Shown: positions 1,084 to 27,979, counted from the first letter of the stretch. The stretch: DNA of 36,727 nucleotides from Planctomycetota bacterium (GCA_021785435.1 JAJYFE010000029.1:1-36727); one strand, 5' to 3'. A program made the numbers and translations. The notes: a model not told the origin generated them from the sequence alone.

Positions 1084-3573
1084 TTATCGGCGGGCGCCCG
1101 CAGGGCTTGAGCGGCGGGCCGCTTGTACCCGCAGCAACAGAACCCCGCCATCGATTCCGCTCAGGTAAATCAGTTTCTTGACCCGCACGGCTATCACATT
1201 GGGTTGTCCGCGGACCAGACGCCTGGTGATGTTGAAGTAGAACGGCTTATCCCAGCCGAAACCGTTGGCCAGCAGGCGATGCACGCCAATTGGTTTGCCG
1301 TTCAGGAACACCCTGGCGTTGCCGTCGACCGCGCCAAAATAAAGAATAATCTGCTGCGTACCGTGATGGGCGGGCGGCTGGATCGACCGGCGATACCAGG
1401 CCACCCCGTGATAAGCGGGGTAACCCTGATCCTGCCAAGGCAGATCGGCGGTTACCCGTGGCCAATGGACAGCGTGAAAGGTTGGCTTCATCCAGCCTTG
1501 CTGAAGCCCCAGATTCCGCGGATCGATATGAAAAAGCCACCCCTTGTCGCAACTTTCCACAATCCGCGGATGCTTGAAAACGCCGAACAGGACACGTTCC
1601 TGGGTGTGGAGTTTCCGGCCCCAGGTGCGCATGGTTCCGGAAATGGACGGCCAGGCGACCGGCCCATTATCGAACACCCAGCCGCCCTTGAAGCTTTGGA
1701 TAAAATGTTCCAAGCCTTGTAATTCCTGCGTCGCCTGCAGGAATTGGCCCTCCAGCCGCAAGTCCAGAAAGCGGCGCGTGCGCAGGGCGACCTGATAGCC
1801 GGCCCAGACACCTTCCAGGCGCTGGGCATAGAGTTTGCGATCGCGCACCAGCGCCCGGGCCTGGGTCATGTCGCGTCCGAGTTGGCGCAGCAGGGCGTCG
1901 GTGAAAAGATTCCAGGCGTCGTAGCCGCCGCTGCCAAAATACGGCCCGGTTTCCGCCGCTTTTTCCATGGTCTGGTAATATCGCTTCATCGGTGCCGCGG
2001 CGGGACCGAAATAATTATGGTAATACAAGTCCAGTTCCTTGTGAACGTTCATATTGGGATTCCACAGGAGCTGGCAGTACATATAGAGATCCAACCCCTG
2101 CGGCCCCCAGCTGGGATGCGATTCGTTGTACACGCCGACCACGTGATAGCGGCGGTAGGCACGCAAGCGATTGACCATGGTATGAATAATGGGCAGCGGG
2201 CCGTACCAGCAGTAGCCGGACCAATATTCATAGGTCATCAGTTCTTTCGAAAGCCGGCTGTAGCCCCGCAGCGAACGCAAAAAATTGGCGTTCTGCACGC
2301 TGGCCGGGTCATCCAAATTTCTGGAGTAATCGCTGTAACCAGCGGCATAAGGAGACAGCATGACCACTAAATTGGGCGCTAGAGCCTTAATCAAAGTGGG
2401 GACTTCGGTGTAATCCCAATAAGCTAAACAGCCAATTTTCGCCCGTGGCGCGGCCTGGGCCACCAGCCGGGCCACGATGTTATTAAATTCGCAGACACGG
2501 TTGGACATAGATACCCCGCCAAAAACCGCCTTGAGCTTGGGATCATCCATGGCGCGTTCGCGCGGGCCTTGGCCCCACAGGCCGCCATCATTGGGTGAAA
2601 CCGAGATGATCCGTTGTTCGGGGTTGGCCCGGGCTTGGGCAATAACTTTCGCGGCGACAAGTCTTTGCACCGCGGGATTGGCCAAGTCCAACTGGCCGTG
2701 CGGGTCGCGTTGGCCATTGATCAAAGCATAATAGTCAGGATGTTTGGCAAAATACTCCTTAGGCGGCAGCAAATACTGGTAACACTGGTCGAAATCGACA
2801 TAGTAATAGCCACCGTATTTCATGGGCGTCCACAGATCCGTGTTCAAACGGTTGCGCGTCGCCCACAAGTGGGTACGTGCCCGCTGCCGGGCGGTTTCAT
2901 CCTGCCAATCCACGTAATCATCGATTCCCCAGCGATATTTATACGCGGGACGATACGTTTTGCGGCCCAGCGGCAGAACAATCCGTTTCAACTTCGGTAC
3001 ATATTCACCCCAGCGCTCCGGCCGATACCAGCGCACCCCCAGGTTTTCCAGAAACTGGTAAACCCCATACAGGGTGCCACGCTCCTGTACAAAGACCTGC
3101 CCCTTGGCGTTCTGGACCGTCGGGCCGATGCCGCCGGCAATCCGCAGGCGATGGGGACCTGCCGCGATGACAAACGAATCAGGATCCAGTTTTTGCCAGC
3201 CCAGATCCTGGTTATACGGATGCGGCCCCAGGATAATCAGGGGGGCGCCTTGCGGCGCCGCGGTTCGTTCAAGGTGGAGCTTCTTACCCGTCATCCGCCG
3301 CAGATAAGTCTGTAGTTGCCGGGCTGCGAAGTTTTCCACCGGCGTGGGTGTTGGCGGCAGAACAATCGTTGGGGTCCGCCGGGCGCTAAGCAGGATCAGT
3401 CTGGCCGCAGCGCGCCGCGCCGGTATCCTGCCGGCACCGGCCAGGCCCACAACGGCAGGCGGGACGCCCGCGGTACGGGGCGCTGGGACAGCCAAGACCG
3501 GGTGATTGACGACCAGTCCCAGAAACAAAACGCCAATGGCGCTGCGAGAATAAAGTCGCCGCATATACCGCAT
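1084..3573 (-). CDS. Secreted DUF4838-type (alpha-glucuronidase-like N-terminal domain) putative glycoside hydrolase with C-terminal GH2-like jelly-roll domain
   Basis: Signal peptide at N-term; 'ILLPPTPTPVENFAARQLQTYLRRMTGKKL', 'GTLYGVYQFLENLGVRWYRPERWGEYVP', 'ISVSPNDGG', C-term 'GVAWYRRSIQPP...LYFGAVDGNARVFLNGKPIG'. Confidence 0.85.
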   Translation of the reverse strand: MRYMRRLYSRSAIGVLFLGLVVNHPVLAVPAPRTAGVPPAVVGLAGAGRIPARRAAARLILLSARRTPTIVLPPTPTPVENFAARQLQTYLRRMTGKKLHLERTAAPQGAPLIILGPHPYNQDLGWQKLDPDSFVIAAGPHRLRIAGGIGPTVQNAKGQVFVQERGTLYGVYQFLENLGVRWYRPERWGEYVPKLKRIVLPLGRKTYRPAYKYRWGIDDYVDWQDETARQRARTHLWATRNRLNTDLWTPMKYGGYYYVDFDQCYQYLLPPKEYFAKHPDYYALINGQRDPHGQLDLANPAVQRLVAAKVIAQARANPEQRIISVSPNDGGLWGQGPRERAMDDPKLKAVFGGVSMSNRVCEFNNIVARLVAQAAPRAKIGCLAYWDYTEVPTLIKALAPNLVVMLSPYAAGYSDYSRNLDDPASVQNANFLRSLRGYSRLSKELMTYEYWSGYCWYGPLPIIHTMVNRLRAYRRYHVVGVYNESHPSWGPQGLDLYMYCQLLWNPNMNVHKELDLYYHNYFGPAAAPMKRYYQTMEKAAETGPYFGSGGYDAWNLFTDALLRQLGRDMTQARALVRDRKLYAQRLEGVWAGYQVALRTRRFLDLRLEGQFLQATQELQGLEHFIQSFKGGWVFDNGPVAWPSISGTMRTWGRKLHTQERVLFGVFKHPRIVESCDKGWLFHIDPRNLGLQQGWMKPTFHAVHWPRVTADLPWQDQGYPAYHGVAWYRRSIQPPAHHGTQQIILYFGAVDGNARVFLNGKPIGVHRLLANGFGWDKPFYFNITRRLVRGQPNVIAVRVKKLIYLSGIDGGVLLLRVQAARRSSPAGARR

Positions 3574-3650
3574 GGTTTGCTCCTACCAGCCTAACGAGCC
3601 TTATCCGCGAAACGAGGTTGTATGCCACGATAGCGGTTCGCCCGTGGCGT

Positions 3651-3681
3651 GTCTTTAGCGATTTTCACAAATTATTTCGCA
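3651..3681 (-). promoter_or_regulatory. 31-bp motif copy B, upstream of the DUF4838 gene
   Basis: Reverse complement TGCGAAATAATTTGTGAAAATCGCTAAAGAC; matches copies at 5709-5739 and 7298-7328. Confidence 0.75.
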
Positions 3682-3911
3682 GTTTCCAGGAACCGTCGTC
3701 CCACGGCAAACGTGGTTGAGGCAGGGCTTCGCGGTCGTATGGGCCGTGCCGCCGTGGAGCGCCAGCACCATACCGCTGGCCCGGAAACCGCTGCCAGCCT
3801 GATCTGGCTGCACCGGCGGACGTGGTTGCGGGCGCCGGAAGGCGCGTGGTAAAGTTGAGGTGCGGAGCAACTACGGGTCAGGCTCTGCCTGAAAACAGCG
3901 GAATGTAAATC

Positions 3912-4751
3912 ATGGCTAAGCAACCGCCAGCCATTGTGACGGCGCATCCGGCGGTCGGTGCGTCGCCTATTGAACGCGTGCTTGATTGCCAGCGTTACCC
4001 GCGTCCGATCAGCGGCGCGGTGATCGTCAGCCAAGGCGTGCCGGGTCACCTGCTGCAGCTGGCGGTGCGGGGGCAGGTGGAATACGAGGTGGCCGGGCGC
4101 ACGTACCTTCTGCAGCCGGGAGACTTGATTTGGCACCATAATATGGAGACGGTTCGGCGACGGGCGGTCCGGGGATACTGGGAATGCTACGCCGTGAACT
4201 TTTTGGCCGCGGATTTGCCGCCGCCGCCGTTCGATCGCCGGGTGCAACGCGTCGATAGCAGCATCGAGCGGCGATTCGCGGCGCTGCTGGAGGCCTGGCG
4301 CGAGACGACGGTCCCACCGCTGTGGCGGGAGTTGCGGGTTCGGGCCAGGCTGGAACTGTTGCTGGCGGATTTGCTGGAGGATTCAGCGGGGGCGCTGCCC
4401 GAGCGCGGTTTTCGGACGGATTCGCCGGCCTGGTTGTGGTGGGCGTTGGAAAGCCGGCTGCGCGATAAATTAGCCGAGCCGATGAGTTTACAGCGCATGG
4501 TGGAATTGGCCGGTTACAGCGCCGCGACCGTCACGGCCGCGTGCCATGCCGCGGTGGGTCAGTCGCCCATGAAGCGTTTCAAGCAACTTCGCCTGACCCT
4601 GGCCCGCAGCCTGGTGGAACGTTCGCGGATGAACTTCTGGGAAATTGCCGAACATGTCGGCTACCAGCGCCAGCACGAGTTCAGCCGCGATTACCATAAA
4701 GCGTTCGGCGTGGCGCCGCGGGAGCACCGCCGCGCGGCCATGCCGCGCTGA
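3912..4751 (+). CDS. AraC family transcriptional regulator
   Basis: C-terminal double HTH 'SLQRMVELAGYSAATVTAACHAAVGQSPMKRFKQLRLTLARSLVERSRMNFWEIAEHVGYQRQHEFSRDYHKAFGVAPREHRR'; N-terminal cupin-like 'GQVEYEVAGRTYLLQPGDLIWH'. Confidence 0.95.
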   Translation: MAKQPPAIVTAHPAVGASPIERVLDCQRYPRPISGAVIVSQGVPGHLLQLAVRGQVEYEVAGRTYLLQPGDLIWHHNMETVRRRAVRGYWECYAVNFLAADLPPPPFDRRVQRVDSSIERRFAALLEAWRETTVPPLWRELRVRARLELLLADLLEDSAGALPERGFRTDSPAWLWWALESRLRDKLAEPMSLQRMVELAGYSAATVTAACHAAVGQSPMKRFKQLRLTLARSLVERSRMNFWEIAEHVGYQRQHEFSRDYHKAFGVAPREHRRAAMPR

Positions 4752-4920
4752 CGTTCGGGGGGTTGCTAAGAAATAACGTGCACGATCCGGCTGGTTCTTT
4801 TGGCTACTGGGTGCGTGGCGCGCTTCTTACAGACCCACTGGGCGGGGTAGGCTCATCGCCGGCGTCTCGCCAGCGGCCAAAATTTCCGGGGCATTTGTAC
4901 AGGTTATTTCCTGGCGTCCC

Positions 4921-5193
4921 CTAACCGTGCCCGCAACCGGTTCCAACGGGGTCGGCAGCGGGGATGGGGACCGATTCCACATCAAGCGATTCCGGCCCAA
5001 AGTCCTGCTCGTGCGGCCAGGCGATGCTGCCAAAACCCAGGCGAACCGAGCGAAAGTATGTCACGCCCTTTAATGCGGTGAAGATACTTTTGTCCAGGTG
5101 GGGCCGGACATCGAAGCGTCGGGTCTTGCCGGTGCTAAAGGCAAGCTCCAGTTGGTAGTTATCCAGCGGATGCACACCGGTCACGGTGATCAT
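4921..5193 (-). CDS. DUF2442 domain-containing protein
   Basis: 'MITVTGVHPLDNYQLELAFSTGKTRRFDVRPHLDKSIFTALKGVTYFRSVRLGFGSIAWPHEQDFGPESL' typical of DUF2442; ATG 5193 preceded by AGGAGG. The ORF stays open upstream to 5295. Confidence 0.85.
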   Translation of the reverse strand: MITVTGVHPLDNYQLELAFSTGKTRRFDVRPHLDKSIFTALKGVTYFRSVRLGFGSIAWPHEQDFGPESLDVESVPIPAADPVGTGCGHG

Positions 5194-5267
5194 CACGCTG
5201 CCTCCTAATTTCAGCGGTTCAATGCGAAAAGGCCGTTCGCCATTGACGACAAGCTGCCAGTCGGCCG

Positions 5268-5474
5268 TCAGTTCCTTCGGGTGAATTCCGTCCACGCCTG
5301 CACAAGCTTCAGCCGCGAGGCAGGTATGGCTCCCGCGAGAACCTCCCCGGAGGGGATTGCCAACAGCGCCGTTCCCTCGGCGTACTTGACATGAATGCGT
5401 GGTGAATAATGCCGCTTGTCATCGAAAAAGTACAGCATGACGATGAGGCCATAAAACATGGAAATAACAGGCAT
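5268..5474 (-). CDS. DUF4160 domain-containing protein (apparently frameshifted at C-terminus)
   Basis: 'MPVISMFYGLIVMLYFFDDKRHYSPRIHVKYAEGTALLAIPSGEVLAGAIPASRLKLVQAWTEF' matches DUF4160; start CAT at 5472-5474 with GGGAG upstream; expected C-term 'HPKELTADWQLVVNGERPFRIEPLK' lies in another frame. Confidence 0.8.
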   Translation of the reverse strand: MPVISMFYGLIVMLYFFDDKRHYSPRIHVKYAEGTALLAIPSGEVLAGAIPASRLKLVQAWTEFTRRN

Positions 5475-5708
5475 CGAACGCTCCCTTTTCAAAATTATTC
5501 CAGCGTACCATGCATCGTTTGTCGTGCCTGGTGTAAGGGGTGCGGCAAGATTCCAGATGGGGCCGCGGTGAGCGTTGGTGGAAGCACCCCGAATAGCCCG
5601 AGATGGCGGACCGCGGGAGGCGGCCCCAACGCTCGGGATGGCCACCATGTTGTTCGCCCATGCTGGGATACCCATCATTGCGGGTCCTCCGCCGGCCGCT
5701 GCCCAACC

Positions 5709-5739
5709 CGCGAAATAATTTTTCAAAATTGCTAAAGGC
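5709..5739 (+). promoter_or_regulatory. 31-bp motif copy C, upstream of the MFS gene
   Basis: CGCGAAATAATTTTTCAAAATTGCTAAAGGC, followed by a small hairpin CCCTGTTTCAGGG and a CATAAT -10-like hexamer. Confidence 0.7.
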
Positions 5740-5854
5740 GCGCCCTGTTTCAGGGGCATAATGAAGCCACATGCGGCTGCAACCCGTGGCCACAGCACCA
5801 CCATGTAAAAAAGTGAATTTATGATGGCTGTATACTAACGCGGATATTTTCAGG

Positions 5855-7273
5855 GTGCGTGCCGGAATGGTTGAACAGGATTTAGCGACGCCCGGAGGGA
5901 ACGGTCAAGTCAGCGGCGTCGGCGGCGCGGGTCGCCGCGCCACCTTCACCGTGGGGACGCTGGTCTACCACCGGGCCAACCTGGTTACACTTTTCGCCTG
6001 GCTGCTCTGGGGTGATTTCATCTTCAACCTGATGCAGACGGTGATGCCGTCGCTATTGCCTTTGATCCTTAAGCGGCATCACGCCACCGACAGCCAGATC
6101 GCCATCATCGTCAACAGTTTGTTCATGTTGATGAATATGCTGCTCAATCCCGTGATCAGTTATCGATCAGACCGAACCCGCACCCGCTGGGGCCGCCGCC
6201 GGCCCTATATTCTGCTGACCACCCCGCTGGTGGTGCTTTTTCTGGCCCTGATTCCCTACGCGCCAAACCTTCTGAAAATAGTCGAACGGATTCCCGGTGC
6301 GGCGGGGCTGTTGGCGCTAAGTCCGATTTCCACGGTTATCTTGATGTTTGGCGTACTGGTGGTGGGATTTCAACTCTTCAACATGTTTATCAGCTCGGTC
6401 TACTACTATCTGATCGTGGACGTCGTTCCGGCCCCGCTGATCGGCCGGTTTTATGGTTTATTCCGCTTTTTTGGCTCGCTGGCGGGCGTATTTTACAGCT
6501 TTTTCATCTTTCCCCTGGCCAAAACCCACATGGCGATGATTTTCCTGGTCACCGCTCTGCTCTACGGCGTATGTATCATGCTGATGGCCTGGCGCGTGAA
6601 AGAGGGCCAATATCCGCCCCCGGAGAAGGAAGAGCATGGCAACTGGTACAGCGGAATCAAAAACTACGCCCGGGAATGTTTTGGCTGCCCGTACTATTGG
6701 TGGGTGTTCCTGGTGTATGGCTGCTACACTTGGGCTGGGGCGGCCAACGTATTTGGGATATTTTTCTTTCGCGATGAGATCGGTTTATCCCTGGCCCAGA
6801 TCGGAAAAATCGGCGCGATCGGCGGCCTGATCTGCATGGCGGCGGCGTATCCGGTCGGCGTGCTGATCGATCGCTGGGGCAGCCACAAAACGCTATTCAT
6901 CGGCTTTACAGCGGTGCCGATCTGCAGCCTCGCCACCGCCTTGTTGGCGCACGGATTCTGGAGCGCGGTATTGCTCGGCGTACCGGCGACTCTGGCCACG
7001 TACACGGTGGGCGCCGCCATACTGAACTGGACCGTGGCGGTCTATCCGCGGGCGCGCTACGGTCAGTTTGGATCAGCGGGCGCCATGTCCTCATCGCTGG
7101 TGGCCGCCGGGTTAAGCCCGCTGGCCGGGTGGTTGATCGACTACGTGCACAGTTACCGGCTGGTGGTCTGCCTGTGGCCGGCGGCTTTCAGCCTGCTGGG
7201 ACTGGCCGCGGCGCTGGTCGTCTACCAGCGCTGGAAGGCCCTGGGCGCTCCGGATCATTATCAGCCGCCGTAA
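5855..7273 (+). CDS. MFS transporter, GPH/SLC45-like sugar symporter family
   Basis: Polytopic protein; 'NPVISYRSDRTRTRWGRRRPYILLTTPLVVLFLALIPYAP' typical of GPH/SLC45-type permeases; GTG start at 5855 or ATG at 5867. Confidence 0.9.
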   Translation: MRAGMVEQDLATPGGNGQVSGVGGAGRRATFTVGTLVYHRANLVTLFAWLLWGDFIFNLMQTVMPSLLPLILKRHHATDSQIAIIVNSLFMLMNMLLNPVISYRSDRTRTRWGRRRPYILLTTPLVVLFLALIPYAPNLLKIVERIPGAAGLLALSPISTVILMFGVLVVGFQLFNMFISSVYYYLIVDVVPAPLIGRFYGLFRFFGSLAGVFYSFFIFPLAKTHMAMIFLVTALLYGVCIMLMAWRVKEGQYPPPEKEEHGNWYSGIKNYARECFGCPYYWWVFLVYGCYTWAGAANVFGIFFFRDEIGLSLAQIGKIGAIGGLICMAAAYPVGVLIDRWGSHKTLFIGFTAVPICSLATALLAHGFWSAVLLGVPATLATYTVGAAILNWTVAVYPRARYGQFGSAGAMSSSLVAAGLSPLAGWLIDYVHSYRLVVCLWPAAFSLLGLAAALVVYQRWKALGAPDHYQPP

Positions 7274-7297
7274 GGCGCTCCTGGCAGCCATTGGAAT

Positions 7298-7328
7298 TGC
7301 GAAATGTTTTGTGAAAATTGCTAAAGAC
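7298..7328 (+). promoter_or_regulatory. 31-bp motif copy A, upstream of the first prepilin-like gene
   Basis: TGCGAAATGTTTTGTGAAAATTGCTAAAGAC. Confidence 0.75.
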
Positions 7329-7501
7329 ATCGGGCGGGTGCCAGAATAGCATGAGAACAGAGGTCGTTTTCAGTTGGTGGATTGTCTAAAGTTTTTTAGG
7401 GGAGGAGCCATTATGCAAGGCCCAATGGGATTACAGGTTTCAAGTTACAGGGGACTGGAGGGAAAAGGTGGAAGGTCTCTGGAGGCCGGGCGCGGCGGCG
7501 G

Positions 7502-7690
7502 GATGAAGGACGAAGGGTCGCCCTTGGCGACGTCTCGTTCGGCGGTGGTCCACCTTTCGCCTAGCGAGCCTGTTATCTTCAGCCCGCTGAGAACCGATCG
7601 CGGAGTGGCCCCGGCGGCAAGCCTATCCCTGGAAACTGGTAATACTGGCTCTCTTTTAAAGGAGATTAGCATGAGAGCGTATCACGTCTC
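7502..7690 (+). repeat. Duplicated leader, copy 1 (partner 13924-14113)
   Basis: 'GGAAACTGGTAATACTGGCTCTCTTTTAAAGGAGATTAGCATGAGAGCGTATCA' vs 'GGAAACGGGTAGTACTGGCCCTCTTTTAGAGGAGGTTACGATGCGAGCGTATCA', with weaker similarity extending upstream. Confidence 0.7.
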
Positions 7691-8978
7691 GACTCGCCCC
7701 CGGCGAGCCATCCAATCCGTAGCCGCAGCCGTGTTGTCCCCGGTTGCGTGGCTGCTTGCTGCGGTGGCCCTGCTGCTCAATTCCATGGTGCTGAGCCTGG
7801 CCCGGGGGCTGGGCGCCTATGGCGACCTGGAATCCCTGGTCAGCCGCGCCGGATTGCGGTCGTGGCGACGCCGTTTCAAAGGCGCGTCAGCGTTTACCCT
7901 GATTGAGCTGCTGGTGGTGATATCGATCATAGCTATTCTCATATCTATATTGCTACCAGCGTTGGCGAAAGCCCGGGAACTGGCCAACCGCGCGGTGTGC
8001 ATGGCCAATATCCGCGGGGTCATCCAGTCCATGGTGACGTATGCTCAGTCGAACAACGGCACGTTCCCGGTGACGGTTAATCAACCCGGCGCGAGCCCGG
8101 GCGCCTACGACAACGCACCCGGCACACCCTACAGTTACACTACCAGCGAGGCAGGTACCGGCGCCAACGTGGTGCAGGCCTGGTACAGGGCGGGCTACAC
8201 CATCTACCCCGATCCGTCGGCGGGCCTGTGGATGCTGGTGCTGCAAGGCTACGCCACGCCAGCCAGTTTCATCTGCCCGTCGGATCCACTGGCGGTGGGT
8301 CCTTCGCTGGAGTACTTCAACAATGCGGGAACGCCGGCGTATTATCCCAATTTCGGGTTTCTGCCGTCTAAGTCCGTTCTTGGCGGCGGTGAACATACCA
8401 ACACCAATGGCCAAGGCATAAGCTATTCCTCCGCTTTTCCGTACCCGTGGCTAAATAATGGGGCGGGCAACACGGGGCCCCTGGCCGCAGGGGCATGGTG
8501 GACTACCACGGACGCCAACACGGAAGTTCCGCTGGTCAGCGACATGACCCCCATGACCGGCGATGCGACCTATGATCCCGGCGACGGGCCGGGCATGGGT
8601 GTGTTTCAGCGGATCGTTACCACGCTGCCGACGGCCAACACCTATGGGCCATATATTTATAATTCCGGCAACCATGCCGGCGACGGGCAGAATGTGGGTT
8701 TTGGCGATGATCATGTAACCTGGGAAATCTCACCTTACGTGGGCCAGAACGGTGACAATATTTTCACCTTCCACAACTACCAAAGCAACCCGGTAGTCCC
8801 AGTTAATGGCACGACGGATACCAGTCAGTATCAATTTGAGGGTCCATGGGACCAATTTACCCAGCCGTTAGTTAAGACATTGTCCGCTCCGTTCGATATC
8901 TGCATGGAGCCTGAGCGGGTTGTGAACCCCACCTACGCCGCCGATACCAGCTTGCCCGATAATGGTGGTGCATGGTGA
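7671..8978 (+). CDS. Type II secretion/prepilin-type N-terminal cleavage/methylation domain protein (paralog 1)
   Basis: 'FTLIELLVVISIIAILISILLPALAKARELANRAVCMANIRGVIQSMVTYAQSNNGTFP' and C-term 'NHAGDGQNVGFGDDHVTWE'; AAAGGAG before ATG 7671. The frame is open from 7374, so an upstream start is possible. Confidence 0.9.
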   Translation: MRAYHVSTRPRRAIQSVAAAVLSPVAWLLAAVALLLNSMVLSLARGLGAYGDLESLVSRAGLRSWRRRFKGASAFTLIELLVVISIIAILISILLPALAKARELANRAVCMANIRGVIQSMVTYAQSNNGTFPVTVNQPGASPGAYDNAPGTPYSYTTSEAGTGANVVQAWYRAGYTIYPDPSAGLWMLVLQGYATPASFICPSDPLAVGPSLEYFNNAGTPAYYPNFGFLPSKSVLGGGEHTNTNGQGISYSSAFPYPWLNNGAGNTGPLAAGAWWTTTDANTEVPLVSDMTPMTGDATYDPGDGPGMGVFQRIVTTLPTANTYGPYIYNSGNHAGDGQNVGFGDDHVTWEISPYVGQNGDNIFTFHNYQSNPVVPVNGTTDTSQYQFEGPWDQFTQPLVKTLSAPFDICMEPERVVNPTYAADTSLPDNGGAW

Positions 8979-9487
8979 GGCGCGGCTGCGCCGCGGGACG
9001 GGAGCGGGAGGTGGACGTGGAATCCGGGGACATGACGAAGACCGATGGTCTCCGCAGGCGGCTGGCTGCGGCGAGGTGAAGGCGGGAGGAGGAAAAAGCG
9101 GGCGTGAAGTTTCGCCAGTCGGGAAGGTCCCCGCCGCTGCTGCAAACGGGACAGGTTCGCGACGGCGGCCGGTGCTGTGGTTCGCCTGTGGCTCGGCGGG
9201 GCGGCGGAACCGTCGGTGCTGCGGAAGATTTCGCCACGAAGGACACGAAGGCGACCCACGGACCGCGGTCGCGGCGGCGGCTAAACTGCGCTGCGAGGGG
9301 CGCGAAAGGAATTCGGATGACGGACGTGGGGACGGTTGAAGTGTGGTGTTCACGGTTTGGCGTGAGATAACGATGTTCGCATCTTCCGGGCGGAGGCGCG
9401 TTCGTCCGACGCGGGTTGCGTGACCCGGACGCTTCGAGAAGTCGCCTCTGGAGAGCCAGGTTAATCAGGTTAATAAGGAGGTGCCTC

Positions 9488-10744
9488 ATGGTACGGCAGG
9501 ATTTATTTTCGGATGACGGCGTTTCGGTGGTGCACTCGCACGAATTTCGACGCTTGGGCGGCGGCCGGAGGTCCGTAGTGGTCCATACCTACAGGGAGTT
9601 GGTCCGGCTGGAAACTGGAAAGCGATGGCAGCGTTCCGATCGCGGTCCAGACGCACGGGAAACCGGCTTTACCCTGATCGAGTTGCTGGTGGTGATCTCG
9701 ATCATTGCGATCCTTGTTTCCATTCTGCTGCCCGCCTTGGCGAAAGCCCGGGAACTGGCCAACCGCGCGGTGTGCATGGCCAATATCCGCGGGATCATCC
9801 AGTCCATGGTGACGTACTCACAGAGCGATGCTGGAACTTTCCCGGTTATAGGAATGCTGACCTACTGGCCCAATTCAACCGGCTACAACTCGATGTATCT
9901 CAACAACGTCTGGGCAGATAATGCGCCGGCCGCCACTGCGCCAGGGATGGTGCAGTCCTGGTACCGTTGGGTGGGCAGCAATCCCCCGGGTGCCTGGGGC
10001 GGGCCGGATGTGTGGCCGAGCATGTGGATTCCGGTGCTGGAGGGTTACACCACGCCGGCCAGCTTCATTTGCCCCTCGGATCCCCTGGCGGTGGGTCCCT
10101 CACTTGAGTCCAACCCCACTGACACCGCGATCGCGCAGGGAAGCCAGACCATTCGGCCCGGATATTACCTGCCGAATTTCGGTGCCGTTACTGTCGCCTC
10201 AGTGGGCGAGTACAATTACAGTGTCTGGGATGGCCCGGGACAGGGTGCCAGTTATTCGATCGCGTTCCCGTGGCCGTGGATCGGGGGCGTCCAGTGGATT
10301 GATACCGCTCCGGGCGACTGGTGGACCACTTCGGGCGCGAACAGCCAGGTTCCGCTGGTCAGCGACATGGCCCCGGCGGACACCGGCACCGACGCGGGCG
10401 TGTTTCAGCGCATCACCACCACCCTGCCGACGGCCAACACTTACGGCCCGTATATTTATAATTCCGGCAACCATGCCGGCGACGGGCAGAACGTCGGCTT
10501 TGGCGATGATCACGTGACGTGGGAAACATCACCGTACGTGGGCCAGAATGGTGACAATATCTTCACTTACACTACGGCCACAGGCGTGATCAACGGAACC
10601 ACGGACACCAATCAGGTAGGAATGTCCGGGGCGGGGGAACTGCCTACGCCGGAGCTACGGCCGCGGTCCGCGCCGTTTGATATTTGCATGACGCCCATCC
10701 GCACGGTGAACCCCACGACTGCAGCGCAGGGTGCGGCATGGTGA
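9488..10744 (+). CDS. Prepilin-type N-terminal cleavage/methylation domain protein (paralog 2)
   Basis: 'FTLIELLVVISIIAILVSILLPALAKARELANRAVCMANIRGIIQSMVTYSQSDAGTFP'; C-term nearly identical to paralog 1; AAGGAGG before ATG 9488. Confidence 0.9.
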   Translation: MVRQDLFSDDGVSVVHSHEFRRLGGGRRSVVVHTYRELVRLETGKRWQRSDRGPDARETGFTLIELLVVISIIAILVSILLPALAKARELANRAVCMANIRGIIQSMVTYSQSDAGTFPVIGMLTYWPNSTGYNSMYLNNVWADNAPAATAPGMVQSWYRWVGSNPPGAWGGPDVWPSMWIPVLEGYTTPASFICPSDPLAVGPSLESNPTDTAIAQGSQTIRPGYYLPNFGAVTVASVGEYNYSVWDGPGQGASYSIAFPWPWIGGVQWIDTAPGDWWTTSGANSQVPLVSDMAPADTGTDAGVFQRITTTLPTANTYGPYIYNSGNHAGDGQNVGFGDDHVTWETSPYVGQNGDNIFTYTTATGVINGTTDTNQVGMSGAGELPTPELRPRSAPFDICMTPIRTVNPTTAAQGAAW

Positions 10745-13700
10745 ACGTGGCCCAGGCAGTGGGCCTCGACCGCCGCCGCTTCGTCGCGGCCACGGCGGCC
10801 GTGCTCGGCCGGGTGGTGTTTTCCGGCCGCGCGGGGCCGGGGGCGGCGGCAATGGCCGGGCTAGGCGGCTGGGCGCGGGCCGGGCGGGGAAGGGGCGCGG
10901 ATCGACGGACCACGATCGGGGCGCAAAGCCTGTGCCTCGGCGCCAGCCAACTGCCTTTAGCGGGTTACTTTCCCCTCGGTTTCGTGCTCGGTGAGAACGG
11001 CGTCTACGAGCAGGGGTTTGAGCGCCTCATACCTCTGGGATTCAACGAATCGCAAACCATCATTGTTCCCTGGGCCGGTGGCGATTCCCCGGCCATGCCG
11101 GCGGCTTCCCGAAGCGGTCTGTGGTTGGTGTGCTGCTGGAGCGCCTACGTGCTGGGACAGATCGACCTGGCCACATTCAAGACGCGCTGGGGGAGGTTGC
11201 CTGCAGCCGTGGACGCCAACGGCCAGCCGGCGCACAGCGGAGCTTCTGTGTTCAGCCGTCGCACCCGCCGTTACCTAGTGGACCGCGACGCCAATTGCGT
11301 CGCCGCGAATTTAAAGGGCTGGAGCGGACAAAGCGACCGCGTGCGCTGCTGGGGAATAGACAACGAGTGGAACCTGCCGCTGGATTATTCGCCCGTGGCC
11401 AAGCGAGCCTTCCGCCGGTGGCTGGCCGCGACCTACCACAGCGTTGCGGCATTGAACGCGGCGTGGGGGCGACACTACAGTACCTTCGGGCAGGCCGAGC
11501 CTCCCGGTCCAGGGCCAGGCAGCACTATGTATCACTACACCAGTTTCGATCTAGCCAGCGCATGGTCCCCCAATTACGCCGCGTGGCTGGACTGGCATGC
11601 GTTCCAGGAGGCCAGCTACGCCGCGACAGTCGCCGAGCGCTTCAGCGCTATCCGGGCGGCGGATCCGGCGCGGCGCCCGGTGGTATCCAAGAACAGCGAC
11701 TGGACGATTGAAGACACCATCGTGGCCAAGGCGGCGATGGTGGACCTGGGGCTGGTGGCAGAGAAAATAAGGTCGGCCTCCGGCGGGCTGATGGCGTTGG
11801 ACTCGTACCAGACCGGTGAGGCGGCGTGCTACTTACCCAACTATGTGTTCCACTGCATTCGTCCCTTAAGCGGCGCGCCGGGCTACGGGGTGTTCCTCTC
11901 CGAAACCAACGACGGCGCCCCCAGCGGCCGGGCGTTCGCACGGACTTATTGGCGCCTGCCGTCCAACGGGCTGAAGGCCGTCAACTACTTTTGCCTCGGC
12001 GGAGTCGGGGACACCGGCGACTACGCCGCCGATGGCTTCGTAACACCCACGGGTCGGATGCTGCCGAAACTGTATTACGCGGCGCGCTGGGCTAACATGA
12101 TTCATCGGACGGAACGCTTTTGGACGGAGGCCAGGCCCAGACCGGCCGTACCGCGCGTGGCCATTCTGATGCCCCATCGTGACGTCATGATCGCCCCGAA
12201 TCCAGCCTGGCGGGACTATTCATGGGCGCCGATTCCTCCGCTGAACAACCGCATAGCCGTTTTCGGCTGGCTGCGCGAGCAGGGCTATTGGGTGGATGTT
12301 ATTCCGTACCAAAAGCTCCATCCGGGCTACCTGGCCAGCTACGGGGCGCTGTTGTTAATCGGTGCGGATCACCTGACTGCGGACGAGTGCGCCGCCATCG
12401 CCGACTACGTACGGTCCGGCGGCTGTGTGCTCGCCGACACCGCGGCCGGATACTTCGATGAGCACCACCGCGTGCATCGCGGCTTGGACGAGGTTTTGGG
12501 CGTCCAGCGCCGCGGCGTCGATATCAATAAGGTCCTCCGTTCACGATCACGGGTTGCTTTTGCTACGCGGTGGGGCCAGGTTGCTGGCGAGGGTCGGGTG
12601 CGTGCCAGCCTGACCACCGCCGAACTTCTGTATCCTTCTAGCCAGGCGGACCGGGCTAGCCAGGCGGACCGGGTAACGGCAGGGACCGGCCGAGCGACGC
12701 GAAATCGCTTCGGACGAGGGATGGGAATCTGGCTGAATACCCAGTTGGGCACGCTACGCTCTGCGGTACCGGCAGCGCCTGCGATGTGGCTGGCGGAATT
12801 GCTGCGGCGGGCTGGGGTACGGCCGGCGTATGAGGTCGCTCGCTTTGCGCATGTCCCTGCCGCCCGCGCGGCAAGGCAATTGCGCCTAGAGCAGCCGTAC
12901 GTAAATGCGGCCGGAAGCTGCGTTTTGACGGTGGCGAACGCGCGGGCACAGGCGCTTCCGGCGCTGACGGTGGAGCTGCCGCGACTCGAGGAATCCGGGG
13001 GCGCCGTCTGGTGGGCTCCCGCCGAAACTGCCAGCCTGGAAAGATTGCCGGTCGAGCCGCTCGGCGGGCCAGAACATCGCTGCACCATCGAGTTACCGGC
13101 TGTCGCCAGCGCCGGCGTAATTTACCTCCTGCGCAACGGCCCTCCCCTGTTGGGGTTCACTGATTTCACCACCGGGCAAACGGGTCGGGACGGCGCCACG
13201 CCGCTGGTCTCGCCCGGCACGGCGTTCCGGACCGCGGTGCAATTGGTGAATCCCATGGCGAGCCCCCTTCCGGCAGGTACGTTGCGGCTTGCCGTTCCGC
13301 AAGGCTGGCAGGCCGAGCCCTGTGAGATCACAACGGCACTGCTACCGGCGGATCAGGAGGCGCGGTACGGGATCACCATCACGCTTTCCCCGGAAACGCT
13401 GAATTTCCGTCCGGAGTGGCTCTATCCACTGGTGGCTCGTTGGAGTACGGGTGCATCCAGCGGTAGCCCGCCTGAGGCAATTTGCACCGCCCACGTACAG
13501 GTGCGTCTGAGCGCGGCGCAGGTGCCGCGGCTGCTCTCGGACAACCCGGGCTGGAAGAATTACCGCTATCGGATTCGCACGGGGTGCGCCCGGAAATTGC
13601 TGGTGTCGAGGGTGCACGATACGGCAGTAGTGCTTTTCGATCTCAAGCGGGTTTACGAGGTTAACCGGATCCGGATTCACTCCCGGGCGGTCTTGCATTT

Positions 13701-13929
13701 CAGCGTTGCGGCCAGCCGTGATGGGAGATGTTTCGCCCAGGTCGACGCCGGCGACGTCATGCACCCGCAGGGGTTATGGGAGGCCTGGCTCGTGTCCCGG
13801 ATTTTCCGGGCACAGGGCCGTTACCTGCGCGTGACCGCCAAGCTCCGGCCCGGCGAAAAGTTAGACCCCGCCGCCGTAGAGGTCTGGGGACGCACAAGCA
13901 CGCCCGGCCTTGGCGGTGGGGCCGGATGA
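10738..13929 (+). CDS. GH42-like (beta-galactosidase-type) secreted protein with C-terminal discoidin-like domain
   Basis: Tat-like N-term 'LDRRRFVAATAAVLG'; 'WGIDNEWNLPLDYSPVAKRAFRRWLAATYHSVAALNAAWGRHYSTF' GH42-like; trimerisation-like region 'ALLLIGADHLTADECAAIADYVRSGGCVLADTAAG'; C-term 'ILVSRVHDTAVVLFDLKRVYEVNRIRIHSRAVLHFSVAASRDGRCF...GRYLRVTAKL'. ATG 10738 overlaps the stop of paralog 2 (ATGGTGA). Confidence 0.8.
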   Translation: MVNVAQAVGLDRRRFVAATAAVLGRVVFSGRAGPGAAAMAGLGGWARAGRGRGADRRTTIGAQSLCLGASQLPLAGYFPLGFVLGENGVYEQGFERLIPLGFNESQTIIVPWAGGDSPAMPAASRSGLWLVCCWSAYVLGQIDLATFKTRWGRLPAAVDANGQPAHSGASVFSRRTRRYLVDRDANCVAANLKGWSGQSDRVRCWGIDNEWNLPLDYSPVAKRAFRRWLAATYHSVAALNAAWGRHYSTFGQAEPPGPGPGSTMYHYTSFDLASAWSPNYAAWLDWHAFQEASYAATVAERFSAIRAADPARRPVVSKNSDWTIEDTIVAKAAMVDLGLVAEKIRSASGGLMALDSYQTGEAACYLPNYVFHCIRPLSGAPGYGVFLSETNDGAPSGRAFARTYWRLPSNGLKAVNYFCLGGVGDTGDYAADGFVTPTGRMLPKLYYAARWANMIHRTERFWTEARPRPAVPRVAILMPHRDVMIAPNPAWRDYSWAPIPPLNNRIAVFGWLREQGYWVDVIPYQKLHPGYLASYGALLLIGADHLTADECAAIADYVRSGGCVLADTAAGYFDEHHRVHRGLDEVLGVQRRGVDINKVLRSRSRVAFATRWGQVAGEGRVRASLTTAELLYPSSQADRASQADRVTAGTGRATRNRFGRGMGIWLNTQLGTLRSAVPAAPAMWLAELLRRAGVRPAYEVARFAHVPAARAARQLRLEQPYVNAAGSCVLTVANARAQALPALTVELPRLEESGGAVWWAPAETASLERLPVEPLGGPEHRCTIELPAVASAGVIYLLRNGPPLLGFTDFTTGQTGRDGATPLVSPGTAFRTAVQLVNPMASPLPAGTLRLAVPQGWQAEPCEITTALLPADQEARYGITITLSPETLNFRPEWLYPLVARWSTGASSGSPPEAICTAHVQVRLSAAQVPRLLSDNPGWKNYRYRIRTGCARKLLVSRVHDTAVVLFDLKRVYEVNRIRIHSRAVLHFSVAASRDGRCFAQVDAGDVMHPQGLWEAWLVSRIFRAQGRYLRVTAKLRPGEKLDPAAVEVWGRTSTPGLGGGAG

Positions 13930-24656: not shown

Positions 24657-24935
24657 CCAAGGCCTATAGCGCCTTCCGATCGCCATTTTCCCCAAGCCGG
24701 TTAAGGCACAGCGCAGACCCATCCCAAGGGGGCGGGAAACGGCCGCGCCGGGCTGGCCTGACCAGAAGGCCATTCCCGGCCCGCGCCGGGAGATGGCGCG
24801 CATTCCACGGACCGCCCCCGCCCCGCCGGCCGGCCCCCGCGCCCCGCCATGCGCCGCTCGGGCGCGATGCCAGGCCGCGGTTTAGTTCCTCGAAGCCGCT
24901 TTCCAAACGGCCGGGGTTGGGCTAATCTTGTGGTC

Positions 24936-27314
24936 ATGCCATTCGGGGAATCAGATACACGCGCCAAGTTGATTGATCCGGCGATACACGCGCGGGGCTG
25001 GACGGAGAACCTGATTCGCCGCGAGGAGACCGCCGGGGCCATTGAAATTGTTGACGGCAAGCCCCGCAAGCGCGCCAAGGGGCGGGTTGATTACACACTG
25101 CGCATCGCGGTGAACGCCGAATCCCAGCCGGTCGCTGTGGCGCTCATTGAAGCCAAGGCGGAAAATCTGCCGCCCGGCCATGGCCTGGAGCAGGCCAGGC
25201 AGTACGCCTCCTGCCAACGGCTGAATGTGCCGTTCGCCTTTTCGAGCAATGGCCACCTGTTCGTCGGATTCGATGCGCTTAGCGGCAAGACCAGCGCCCC
25301 TAAGCCGCTGGCGGAATTCCCCACGCCGGCCGAGCTGCGAACGCGTTACGAGAAGGCCCGGGGCTTTGCGCTGGACTCGCCGGCGGCCCGGCCGCTGCTG
25401 ACGCGCTACGCCGGCGGCGAGGCGACGCGGCGGTACTACCAGGATGCGGCCATCCGGGCGGTGCTGGAAAAAATCGCACGCGGCGAAAAACGCGCCCTGC
25501 TCACCCTGGCCACGGGCGCCGGCAAAACCTTTATCGCCGTCCACCTGCTTAAGCGCATCGCCGACGCCGGCCAATTGCGCCGGGCGCTATTTGTATGCGA
25601 CCGCGACGAATTGCGCAGCCAGGGGCTGGGTGCGTTTCAAAATGTGTTCGGGGCGGATGCCGCCGAGGCGTACCGGGAGCCGGATGGCTCGAACCACGCC
25701 CGCAATGCCCGCATCCACGTCGCCACCTACCAGACGCTGGATGTGGACACCGAGGAGGGCACGGCCAACTTTCTGAGCACGTTCTATCCGGAAAATTATT
25801 TCAGCCATATCATCATCGACGAATGCCATCGCTCGGCCTGGGGCAAGTGGTCGCAGGTGCTTACGCGCAATCCGGGGGCTATCCAGATCGGCCTGACGGC
25901 CACGCCGCGTAAGATCGAGGTCACCGAAAAGAGCCGCGAGGCCGTCGCCGATCAGCAGATTAACGCCGACAACCTTAAGCACTTCGGCGAGCCGGCCTAC
26001 GAGTATGACATGGCCCAGGGGATCGAGGACGGCTACCTGGCCGCGTGCGAAATCCATCGGGTGGATCTTTTTCTCGGCAATAAGGCCAAAAGCGAGCGCG
26101 TGACCGGCGTCCTGCGTGAAGACCTGGAGGGTAAAAAGCTTACTGATGCCGATACGGGGGCACTTATCGCCGCCGATGATGCGCGCCCGTATTATGCCGC
26201 ATCCGATCTGGACGACAGGCTCTTGATGCCGGAGCGCGTCGCGGCCATGACGCGCCACCTGTTCGAGCAGCTGCGCGCCACCGGCGGGCCGGAACAAAAG
26301 ACCATTATTTTCTGCGCCCGGGACCGCCATGCCGATGATGTGGCCGCGGCGATGAACAATCTTTACGCCGACTGGTATGATAAAAATAACTGGCCGCGCG
26401 GCGAGCCTTACGCCTTTAAATGCACGGCGAGCGTGGGCGGGGCGCAATACCTGGCCGACCTGCGCGGGGCCTCGCGCTCATATTTCATCGCCACCACGGT
26501 GGACCTGCTGACGACCGGCGTGGATGTGCCCGCGGTGCAGAACATTGTCTTCTTCAAATACGTACGCTCGCCGATTGCGTTTTACCAGATGGTGGGTCGC
26601 GGTACGCGGCTTAATGCCGCCACCGGCAAGTTGATGTTTCGCGTTTATGATTTCACCAACGCCACGCGGTTGTTCGGCGAGGAGTTTAAGGGCCAGTGGC
26701 AGCCGCGCCAGGGCAAGAGCGGCCCAGGGCCGTCGCAGCCGCCGGAGCCGACGCTTCAGGTTCAGGGCTTCGATGTGCGCGTGACCGATGCCGGGCGCTA
26801 TATCCTCACGCAGGTGGATGGCCGGGCGATGCCCGTCACGGTGGAGCAGTACAAGCAGCAGCTGGCGGCGCGGCTCGTCGCGGAGGCGCCGACGCTTGAG
26901 CGGTTCCGCGCCCGCTGGATTGCGCCGCCGGAGCGCCGTAAGCTGCTGGACCGCCTGCCGGGTGCGGGGCGCTCGGCATTGCTGGTGCGCAGCCTGGAGG
27001 AGATGGAGGCTTACGACCTTTACGATGTGCTCGCCGAGCTTGGCTACGGCCTGGCCCCGCGGACGCGCGTCGGCCGGGCCGACGCGTTTGCCTACAAGCA
27101 TGAACGCTGGCTGGCCGGCTTACCCGCCCCGGCGGCGAATACGCTTAAAGCGATGGCCCGGCAGTTCGCCTGCGCCGGCACGGATGGCCTGGAAAATCCG
27201 GAAATATTCCAGACCCCCGAAGTGGCCCAGGCCGGCGGCTTGGGTGCGCTTAGGGCCTTGGGCAGACCGGCGGACATTTTGCGCGAAACCAAGGCGAGGA
27301 TGTTCGCGGCATGA
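24936..27314 (+). CDS. hsdR: Type I restriction endonuclease subunit R (EcoEI-R-C type)
   Basis: 'LLTLATGAGKTFIAVHLLKRI' Walker A, 'HIIIDECHRSAWGKW' DEAD-like box, 'LTATPRK', 'DLLTTGVDVPAVQNIVFFKYVRSPIAFYQMVGRGTRL'; start 24936 chosen as 'MPFGESDTRAKLIDPAIHARGW'. Confidence 0.93.
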   Translation: MPFGESDTRAKLIDPAIHARGWTENLIRREETAGAIEIVDGKPRKRAKGRVDYTLRIAVNAESQPVAVALIEAKAENLPPGHGLEQARQYASCQRLNVPFAFSSNGHLFVGFDALSGKTSAPKPLAEFPTPAELRTRYEKARGFALDSPAARPLLTRYAGGEATRRYYQDAAIRAVLEKIARGEKRALLTLATGAGKTFIAVHLLKRIADAGQLRRALFVCDRDELRSQGLGAFQNVFGADAAEAYREPDGSNHARNARIHVATYQTLDVDTEEGTANFLSTFYPENYFSHIIIDECHRSAWGKWSQVLTRNPGAIQIGLTATPRKIEVTEKSREAVADQQINADNLKHFGEPAYEYDMAQGIEDGYLAACEIHRVDLFLGNKAKSERVTGVLREDLEGKKLTDADTGALIAADDARPYYAASDLDDRLLMPERVAAMTRHLFEQLRATGGPEQKTIIFCARDRHADDVAAAMNNLYADWYDKNNWPRGEPYAFKCTASVGGAQYLADLRGASRSYFIATTVDLLTTGVDVPAVQNIVFFKYVRSPIAFYQMVGRGTRLNAATGKLMFRVYDFTNATRLFGEEFKGQWQPRQGKSGPGPSQPPEPTLQVQGFDVRVTDAGRYILTQVDGRAMPVTVEQYKQQLAARLVAEAPTLERFRARWIAPPERRKLLDRLPGAGRSALLVRSLEEMEAYDLYDVLAELGYGLAPRTRVGRADAFAYKHERWLAGLPAPAANTLKAMARQFACAGTDGLENPEIFQTPEVAQAGGLGALRALGRPADILRETKARMFAA

Positions 27315-27979
27315 CGAAGGCGACGAGAGAAATTCCGGCCGAGAACGCGGATATGGCGAGGGCCGGCCTGCCTGACGGCTGGCGCTGGGTGAAGCTGGGC
27401 GCGTTGGTTTCCCTGGCGCAGCATGGCTTTGCGACCGGCGAACGCGACGCGGGCGGTGTTATCCAGGTCCGCATGAACAACGTCACCACGCTTGGGCAGT
27501 TCGACTGGGCCTCCCTCACCCGGGTGCCCGCGGATCCCGAATTGGTCGAGCGCTACCGACTGCAAGCGGGGGATGTACTCTTCAACAACACGAACAGCGC
27601 CGAGTTGGTTGGCAAGACGGCGCTTTTCGACGGCCACGATGAGCCGGTCGTGTTCAGCAACCACTTTACGCGTGTGCGCGCGAATCCCGAGGCGCTTAAT
27701 CCCCGCTTCCTTGCGCTGTGGCTCCAGCAGCAGTGGCAAAGCGGGGCCTTCGCCGCGATCTGTAACCGCTGGATTGGGCAATCGGCAATCCAGCGGCCTA
27801 AACTGCTTGCGCTTGAAATTCCTCTTCCCCCGCTGGCGGAGCAGAAGCGCATCGCGGAAATTTTGAAAGAGCAGATGGCCGCGACCGAGCAGCTGCGCCG
27901 GGCCTTGGCCGAGCAACTGGAAACCATCAACAAGCTGCCCGCCGCGCTGCTGCGCGAAGCATTCACCGGCGGCCTGTAG
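27311..27979 (+). CDS. hsdS: Type I restriction specificity subunit, single-TRD (half-length)
   Basis: 'LPDGWRWVKLGALVSL', 'QSAIQRPKLLALEIPLPPLAEQKRIAEILKEQMAATEQLRRALAEQLETINKLPAALLREAFTGGL'; ATGA overlap with hsdR; only 222 aa with one TRD and one coiled-coil. Confidence 0.92.
   Translation: MTKATREIPAENADMARAGLPDGWRWVKLGALVSLAQHGFATGERDAGGVIQVRMNNVTTLGQFDWASLTRVPADPELVERYRLQAGDVLFNNTNSAELVGKTALFDGHDEPVVFSNHFTRVRANPEALNPRFLALWLQQQWQSGAFAAICNRWIGQSAIQRPKLLALEIPLPPLAEQKRIAEILKEQMAATEQLRRALAEQLETINKLPAALLREAFTGGL

Follow-up and report, generated by a model that had tools for sequence, protein, structure and literature searches.

A predicted AraC-type operator in three copies at a sugar-related locus of a Planctomycetota bacterium

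Three 31-bp copies of a predicted operator near an AraC-type gene

Three stretches of 31 bp, referred to as sites A, B and C, are very probably the landing sites, as predicted from their sequence and setting, of the AraC-type protein encoded alongside them. The system is ordinary in kind, well-defined and cleanly readable from sequence. It is highly likely that the copies are operator-promoters read by this protein and by a paralogue on contig C209, which would activate three target units together by a class-II mechanism. The window, meaning the whole stretch of 36,727 nucleotides analysed here, is contig C54 of a 4.4-Mb genome in 234 contigs, and its gene order is SOD, DUF4838, AraC, a DUF2442/DUF4160 pair, MFS, prepilin-like, second prepilin-like and GH42-like. 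The relevant genes and predicted sites are as follows.

1084-3573, minus: DUF4838 protein with a GH2-type sugar-binding domain, predicted target of site A (PF16126, E 5e-48; PF02837)
3912-4751, plus: AraC-type regulator, predicted binder of the sites (AraC_binding N-domain, HTH_18 C-domain)
5855-7273, plus: MFS sugar-transporter-like protein, predicted target of site B (PF07690, E 1e-26; PF13347)
7374-8978, plus: prepilin-like protein, first gene behind site C (N_methyl motif)
9416-10744, plus: second prepilin-like gene, probably in the same operon, judging by the spacing
10684-13929, plus: GH42-like glycosidase, probably in the same operon (PF02449, E 1.6e-12)
3651-3681, minus: site A, predicted AraC operator upstream of the DUF4838 gene, TGCGAAATAATTTGTGAAAATCGCTAAAGAC; half-sites, also minus, distal TGCGAAAT (3674-3681) and proximal CGCTAAAGAC (3651-3660)
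5709-5739, plus: site B, predicted AraC operator upstream of the MFS transporter gene, CGCGAAATAATTTTTCAAAATTGCTAAAGGC; half-sites distal CGCGAAAT and proximal TGCTAAAGGC
7298-7328, plus: site C, predicted AraC operator upstream of the prepilin-like operon, TGCGAAATGTTTTGTGAAAATTGCTAAAGAC; half-sites distal TGCGAAAT and proximal TGCTAAAGAC

A reading of the window made from the sequence only had placed three copies at these coordinates and on these strands, each facing the gene given above, and both statements proved correct. The count is far above chance: a 27-base core without mismatches occurs at exactly three places in the 4.4-Mb genome, namely A, B and C, the reversed core pattern has no match in the same genome, and shuffled window sequence contains no match to the motif. 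The copies had been called near-identical, which is apt insofar as the sites share 25-28 of 31 bases pairwise, but not for site B, which is degraded in its middle. Its first base is C instead of T, its middle reads TTTTTC and its last bases are GGC, and it falls outside three mismatches of the consensus first proposed. The sequence-only reading placed the AraC gene between B and C, but it is located between A and B. The "shadow peptides" cited in that reading simply translate the reverse complement of the motif and carry no evidential weight of their own.

The 80-bp flanks of A, B and C agree at only 17-30 of 80 positions, compared to 25-28 of 31 within the sites, so the similarity does not extend to a larger repeated unit. 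Duplication did occur here, as the prepilin-like genes and the paralogous locus described below show, and the repeats could accordingly be imagined as functionless remnants of a recent duplication or mobile element. This is hardly credible, as the flanks of the three sites are unrelated, the sites stand upstream of non-homologous genes, and the half-sites persist beside diverged regulators while the middle and the flanks drift, other classes of the phylum included. In the same-genus genome G001, site A is identical at 31/31 positions and its flanks at 93.5%.

Half-site anatomy and the AraC protein

The conserved bases are YGCGAAA at the start of the site and GCTAAAGAC at its end. Together they form a direct repeat, YGCGAAA (distal) and YGCTAAAGAC (proximal), whose like parts are 21 bp, or two helical turns, apart. 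This is the layout of AraC-family direct-repeat operators, with half-sites about two helical turns apart, and the 21-bp spacing is found in A, B and C as well as in the C209 sites; in relatives, the spacing is 21 or 22 bp. The middle of the site is AT-rich in the genome of the window and unconserved elsewhere. The half-sites had previously been taken to be TGCGAAAT and TGTGAAAA, 12 bp apart, and this spacing was ruled out: B and the C209 sites have lost the middle element, which is unconserved in relatives, and the apparent third half-site TGTGAAAA is found solely in A and C. The repeat that persists across the sites is TGCGAAA / (T/C)GCTAAA at 21 bp.

Six distant subfamily members (G033, G108, G093, G469, G399 and G471) have a 22-bp version of the operator, GCTAACGAC, which ends in TAACGAC and again has a -10 downstream. 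Three members with the 21-bp spacing (G162, G362 and G234) branch from within the 22-bp members G033, G108 and G093 in the protein tree; consequently, the spacing has switched more than once or has reverted. A comparison of the helix-turn-helix residues yielded only two columns separating 21-bp from 22-bp operators, both outside the recognition helices.

The AraC protein itself has the C-terminal double helix-turn-helix of the family (HTH_18 / HTH_AraC; PF12833, E 1.5e-13, and PF00165, both above the cut-off). An N-terminal cupin-like domain is also present as a partial match (PF02311, residues 44-99, 24.8 bits against a cut-off of 21.1), and this AraC_binding domain, together with the gene content of the locus, suggests a carbohydrate-derived ligand. 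The protein is not an equivalog of a named regulator (AraC, RhaS, XylS or others), as all NCBIfam matches are far below their cut-offs. The one named near relative that was found is the metagenome-assembled Planctomycetota bacterium YP1.bin19, whose AraC protein is 97% identical.

Promoter register of the sites

The sequence-only reading noted -10-like hexamers after A and C. These are present, and site B, for which none was mentioned, has one as well.

3627-3632, minus: -10 hexamer behind A, TATCGT, 19 nt past the site, placed by the conserved spacing
5757-5762, plus: -10 hexamer behind B, CATAAT, 18 nt past the site
7347-7352, plus: -10 hexamer behind C, TAGCAT, 19 nt past the site

At all 14 sites tested, a -10-like hexamer starts 18-20 nt beyond the last base of the site, and the hexamers at other sites include TATTAT, TATCAT, TATAAT and CATAAT. 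Summed over the 14 sites, the identity to TATAAT is 68, compared to 34.5 +/- 3.4 in shuffles, none of which (0/5000) reached 68. The sites were found without use of the -10 register, which entered only the model for the profile search of the genome that gave eight sites (see below). In the later-found members G399, G471 and G412b, the offset of the -10 is 17 or 21 and the site scores are lower. With a spacer of 16-18 bp, the implied -35 consists of the last bases of the site and the base that follows (AAGACA, AAGGCG, AATACA and similar), and these hexamers are poor, with 0-4 of 6 consensus bases, as is expected of activator-dependent promoters. The proximal half-site thus overlaps or abuts the -35 at a fixed distance from the -10 across the 14 sites, which is the arrangement of a class-II promoter.

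The two conserved boxes at a fixed distance upstream of genes might also suggest a promoter class of an alternative (e.g., ECF) sigma factor with boxes TGCGAAA and TAAAGAC, the AraC gene being an unrelated neighbour. This is very unlikely. A TATAAT-like -10 lies downstream of every site in fixed register, which marks the boxes as upstream elements, and the motif follows one AraC clade across the phylum and is absent elsewhere, whereas an unlinked sigma factor would not be followed in this way. A somewhat less remote alternative, to which we give only a small chance, keeps the same operator and the same AraC protein, with the protein acting as a repressor or mainly by looping among A, B and C until released by a ligand. 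The proximal half-site over the -35 region could block polymerase, and three sites inside 3.7 kb would permit loops, like those of Escherichia coli AraC at araI1/araO2 (PMC4760080). However, the constant 18-20 nt from site to -10 and the weak -35 suit activator dependence better, and in relatives each promoter flanking the AraC gene has just one site, so that loops are not needed.

Eight sites in the genome and a paralogous locus

A scan of the genome, which the sequence-only reading had proposed, showed that the motif is rare, with eight sites, each upstream of a gene. The search used a sequence-only covariance model of the site plus the -10, alongside pattern searches, and the profile found exactly eight places at E<1e-3 and no more up to E=1. 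A loose half-site pattern with two mismatches gave 50 matches in the same genome compared to 78 for the reversed control, and it is informative for exact matches only. The eight sites are A, B and C, three around the C209 AraC paralogue, one on C121 upstream of a GHL6-like (glycosidase-like) gene, and one on C64 upstream of a Gfo/Idh/MocA oxidoreductase gene; the last two are also conserved in G001. The C121 site (8712-8742) lies within a PhyH/URO-D cluster, and the AraC gene present there (5505-6380, about 3 kb away) is of a different clade.

The paralogous locus (C209:24000-43000, about 2969-8991 therein) encodes an AraC protein about 70-71% identical, a DUF4838 protein 71% identical and a prepilin 65% identical to those of the window. 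It has three diverged operators, upstream of the prepilin gene, the DUF4838 gene and a gene for a 386-aa protein without a Pfam match, which stands where the window has the MFS gene. Between the window and C209, the flanks of the DUF4838 promoter align at 32% and those of the prepilin promoter at 45%, while the sites themselves agree at 22/31 and 24/31 positions, respectively. The AraC protein of the window and its C209 paralogue may share the eight sites or divide them between them.

The site follows one AraC clade

The 30 HTH_18 matches of the genome comprise 2 subfamily members, 27 other AraC genes and 1 fragment. A site was called where the best place scored at least 15 on the two half-sites and had at least 4 of 6 -10 bases, and by this measure no site was found beside any of the 27 other AraC genes (within about 1.5 kb); the site is therefore specific to this regulator and not general to AraC genes. 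Among 397 genomes of the class, eight contain the strict repeat TGCGAMA-N15-GCTAAAKAC, and seven of these eight belong to the 12 with an AraC homologue at E<=1e-15. In the eighth (G121), the match is inside an ORF. The co-occurrence of repeat and subfamily across the 397 genomes gives a Fisher value of 2e-11, and such values are too optimistic because the genomes are related and yet treated as independent. Many of the genomes compared are MAGs.

Upstream regions in relatives, whose comparison had likewise been proposed, have the site beside 16 of 18 subfamily members, and beside 9 of 11 among the members outside the training set of the profile; of five members found later outside the class, four have it. 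In the tree, all 18 proteins fall on the same side of a branch whose SH-aLRT is 99. The two members without a clear site are G388, which has a diverged candidate only, and G412a, which has none. In G002, G041, G063, G399, G471 and G412, the site lies between the AraC gene and a divergent PhyH dioxygenase gene; in G234, G033 and G108, and weakly in G093, it lies between the AraC gene and a URO-D-type gene. Since the profile first came to light next to AraC genes, most weight falls on the rarity of the motif in the genome, the scan of 397 genomes, the members found later and the -10 register.

A gapped consensus run over 294 genomes of the phylum has a visible background; its matches other than those in the genome of the window and in G469 fall within ORFs, lack a good -10 and were set aside as chance matches, as were the G067, G121 and G270 matches of the class searches. 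Searches at family level, run for the families of G041 and G162, yielded no additional members of the subfamily.

Proposed mechanism and comparison with known systems

The candidate put forward by the sequence-only reading, an operator of the adjoining AraC protein, is supported by the rarity of the motif, the C209 paralogue with its three diverged sites, the co-occurrence with the clade, the absence at other AraC genes and the fixed -10 spacing. We infer that the protein binds the sites, forms a dimer, activates rather than represses, and responds to a sugar-type ligand. An AraC dimer would place its two DNA-binding domains on the two direct-repeat half-sites, which share one face of the helix. 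The proximal half-site would overlap the degraded -35 (AAGACA or worse), with the -10 18-20 nt downstream, and this geometry suggests that the bound regulator, once loaded with ligand, would recruit a sigma-70-type RNA polymerase. Activation by the predicted operator-bound AraC is thus probably of class II, and the DUF4838 hydrolase-like gene, the MFS transporter gene and the prepilin/GH42 operon would be switched on jointly.

XylS half-sites at Pm have a centre-to-centre spacing of 21 bp. At this promoter of the TOL plasmid, two direct-repeat half-sites lie upstream of or over the -35, and the 15-bp repeats begin with a TGC(A) box (PMC5481539). In the window, too, the half-sites are direct repeats that reach or closely precede the -35; however, they have no recognisable GGTA box B, the similarity of the AraC protein to XylS is confined to the AraC domains, and the targets are sugar and oxidoreductase genes, not a meta-cleavage pathway. 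In E. coli, an AraC dimer on the adjacent half-sites araI1-araI2 recruits RNA polymerase at araBAD (PMC4760080). The E. coli AraC NCBIfam model is the best by E-value for the helix-turn-helix part of the window protein, yet it scores 43 against a cut-off of 208 bits; in addition, the half-site sequence of the window differs, and no araO2-like looping site is evident. MtlR of Pseudomonas fluorescens activates a mannitol (sugar-alcohol) operon at PmtlE from direct repeats that closely precede the -35 (PMC4514859). The site of MtlR extends over 37 bp or more on the upstream side of the -35, whereas the proximal half-site of the window runs into it. By analogy, the three systems would work in a manner similar to that predicted for the window.

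The literature searched contained no description of this operator or of any planctomycete AraC operator. It also held nothing on AraC with DUF4838, nothing on the AraC family with phytanoyl-CoA dioxygenase and Planctomycetota, and nothing relevant on regulons of planctomycetes. Planctomycetes have many AraC genes without known targets, and here the protein, the site, the promoter register and the eight-promoter set can be read jointly. A wider reading is possible but rather doubtful: an undescribed AraC lineage, spread over several Planctomycetota classes, may keep one operator-promoter module (TGCGAMA, 21 or 22 bp, GCTAAMKAC, -10) even where protein identity falls to about 30%. Elsewhere, the lineage would govern a divergent PhyH-type dioxygenase or URO-D-type gene, and in this genus a duplication would have been followed by its re-wiring into a set of eight promoters that co-induces hydrolases, a transporter and prepilin-like surface proteins. 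If this is true, the re-wired set would amount to a ligand-triggered display of pilin-like proteins along with carbohydrate breakdown. The recurrence of the module in relatives provides a testable handle on the DUF4838 and prepilin-like proteins of planctomycete glycosidase loci, and the 21- and 22-bp versions, with the paralogue pair, constitute a natural series for AraC operator evolution.

Other features of the window

The prepilin-like gene probably starts at an in-frame ATG at 7671 or 7413 rather than at 7374. In its ORF, within 7374-7900 (plus), the pilin cleavage motif is at residue 171; the ATG at 7671, with AAAGGAG just before it, may be the start, and about 70 residues would still precede the motif. 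The DUF2442 and DUF4160 genes (4921-5474, minus) are adjacent and overlapping, between the AraC gene and site B. The pair looks inserted, as the C209 locus has a site and target straight after the AraC gene. Farther along the window, type I restriction-modification genes occupy 24849-27979 (plus), with an R-like helicase subunit at 24849-27314 and a specificity subunit at 27311-27979.
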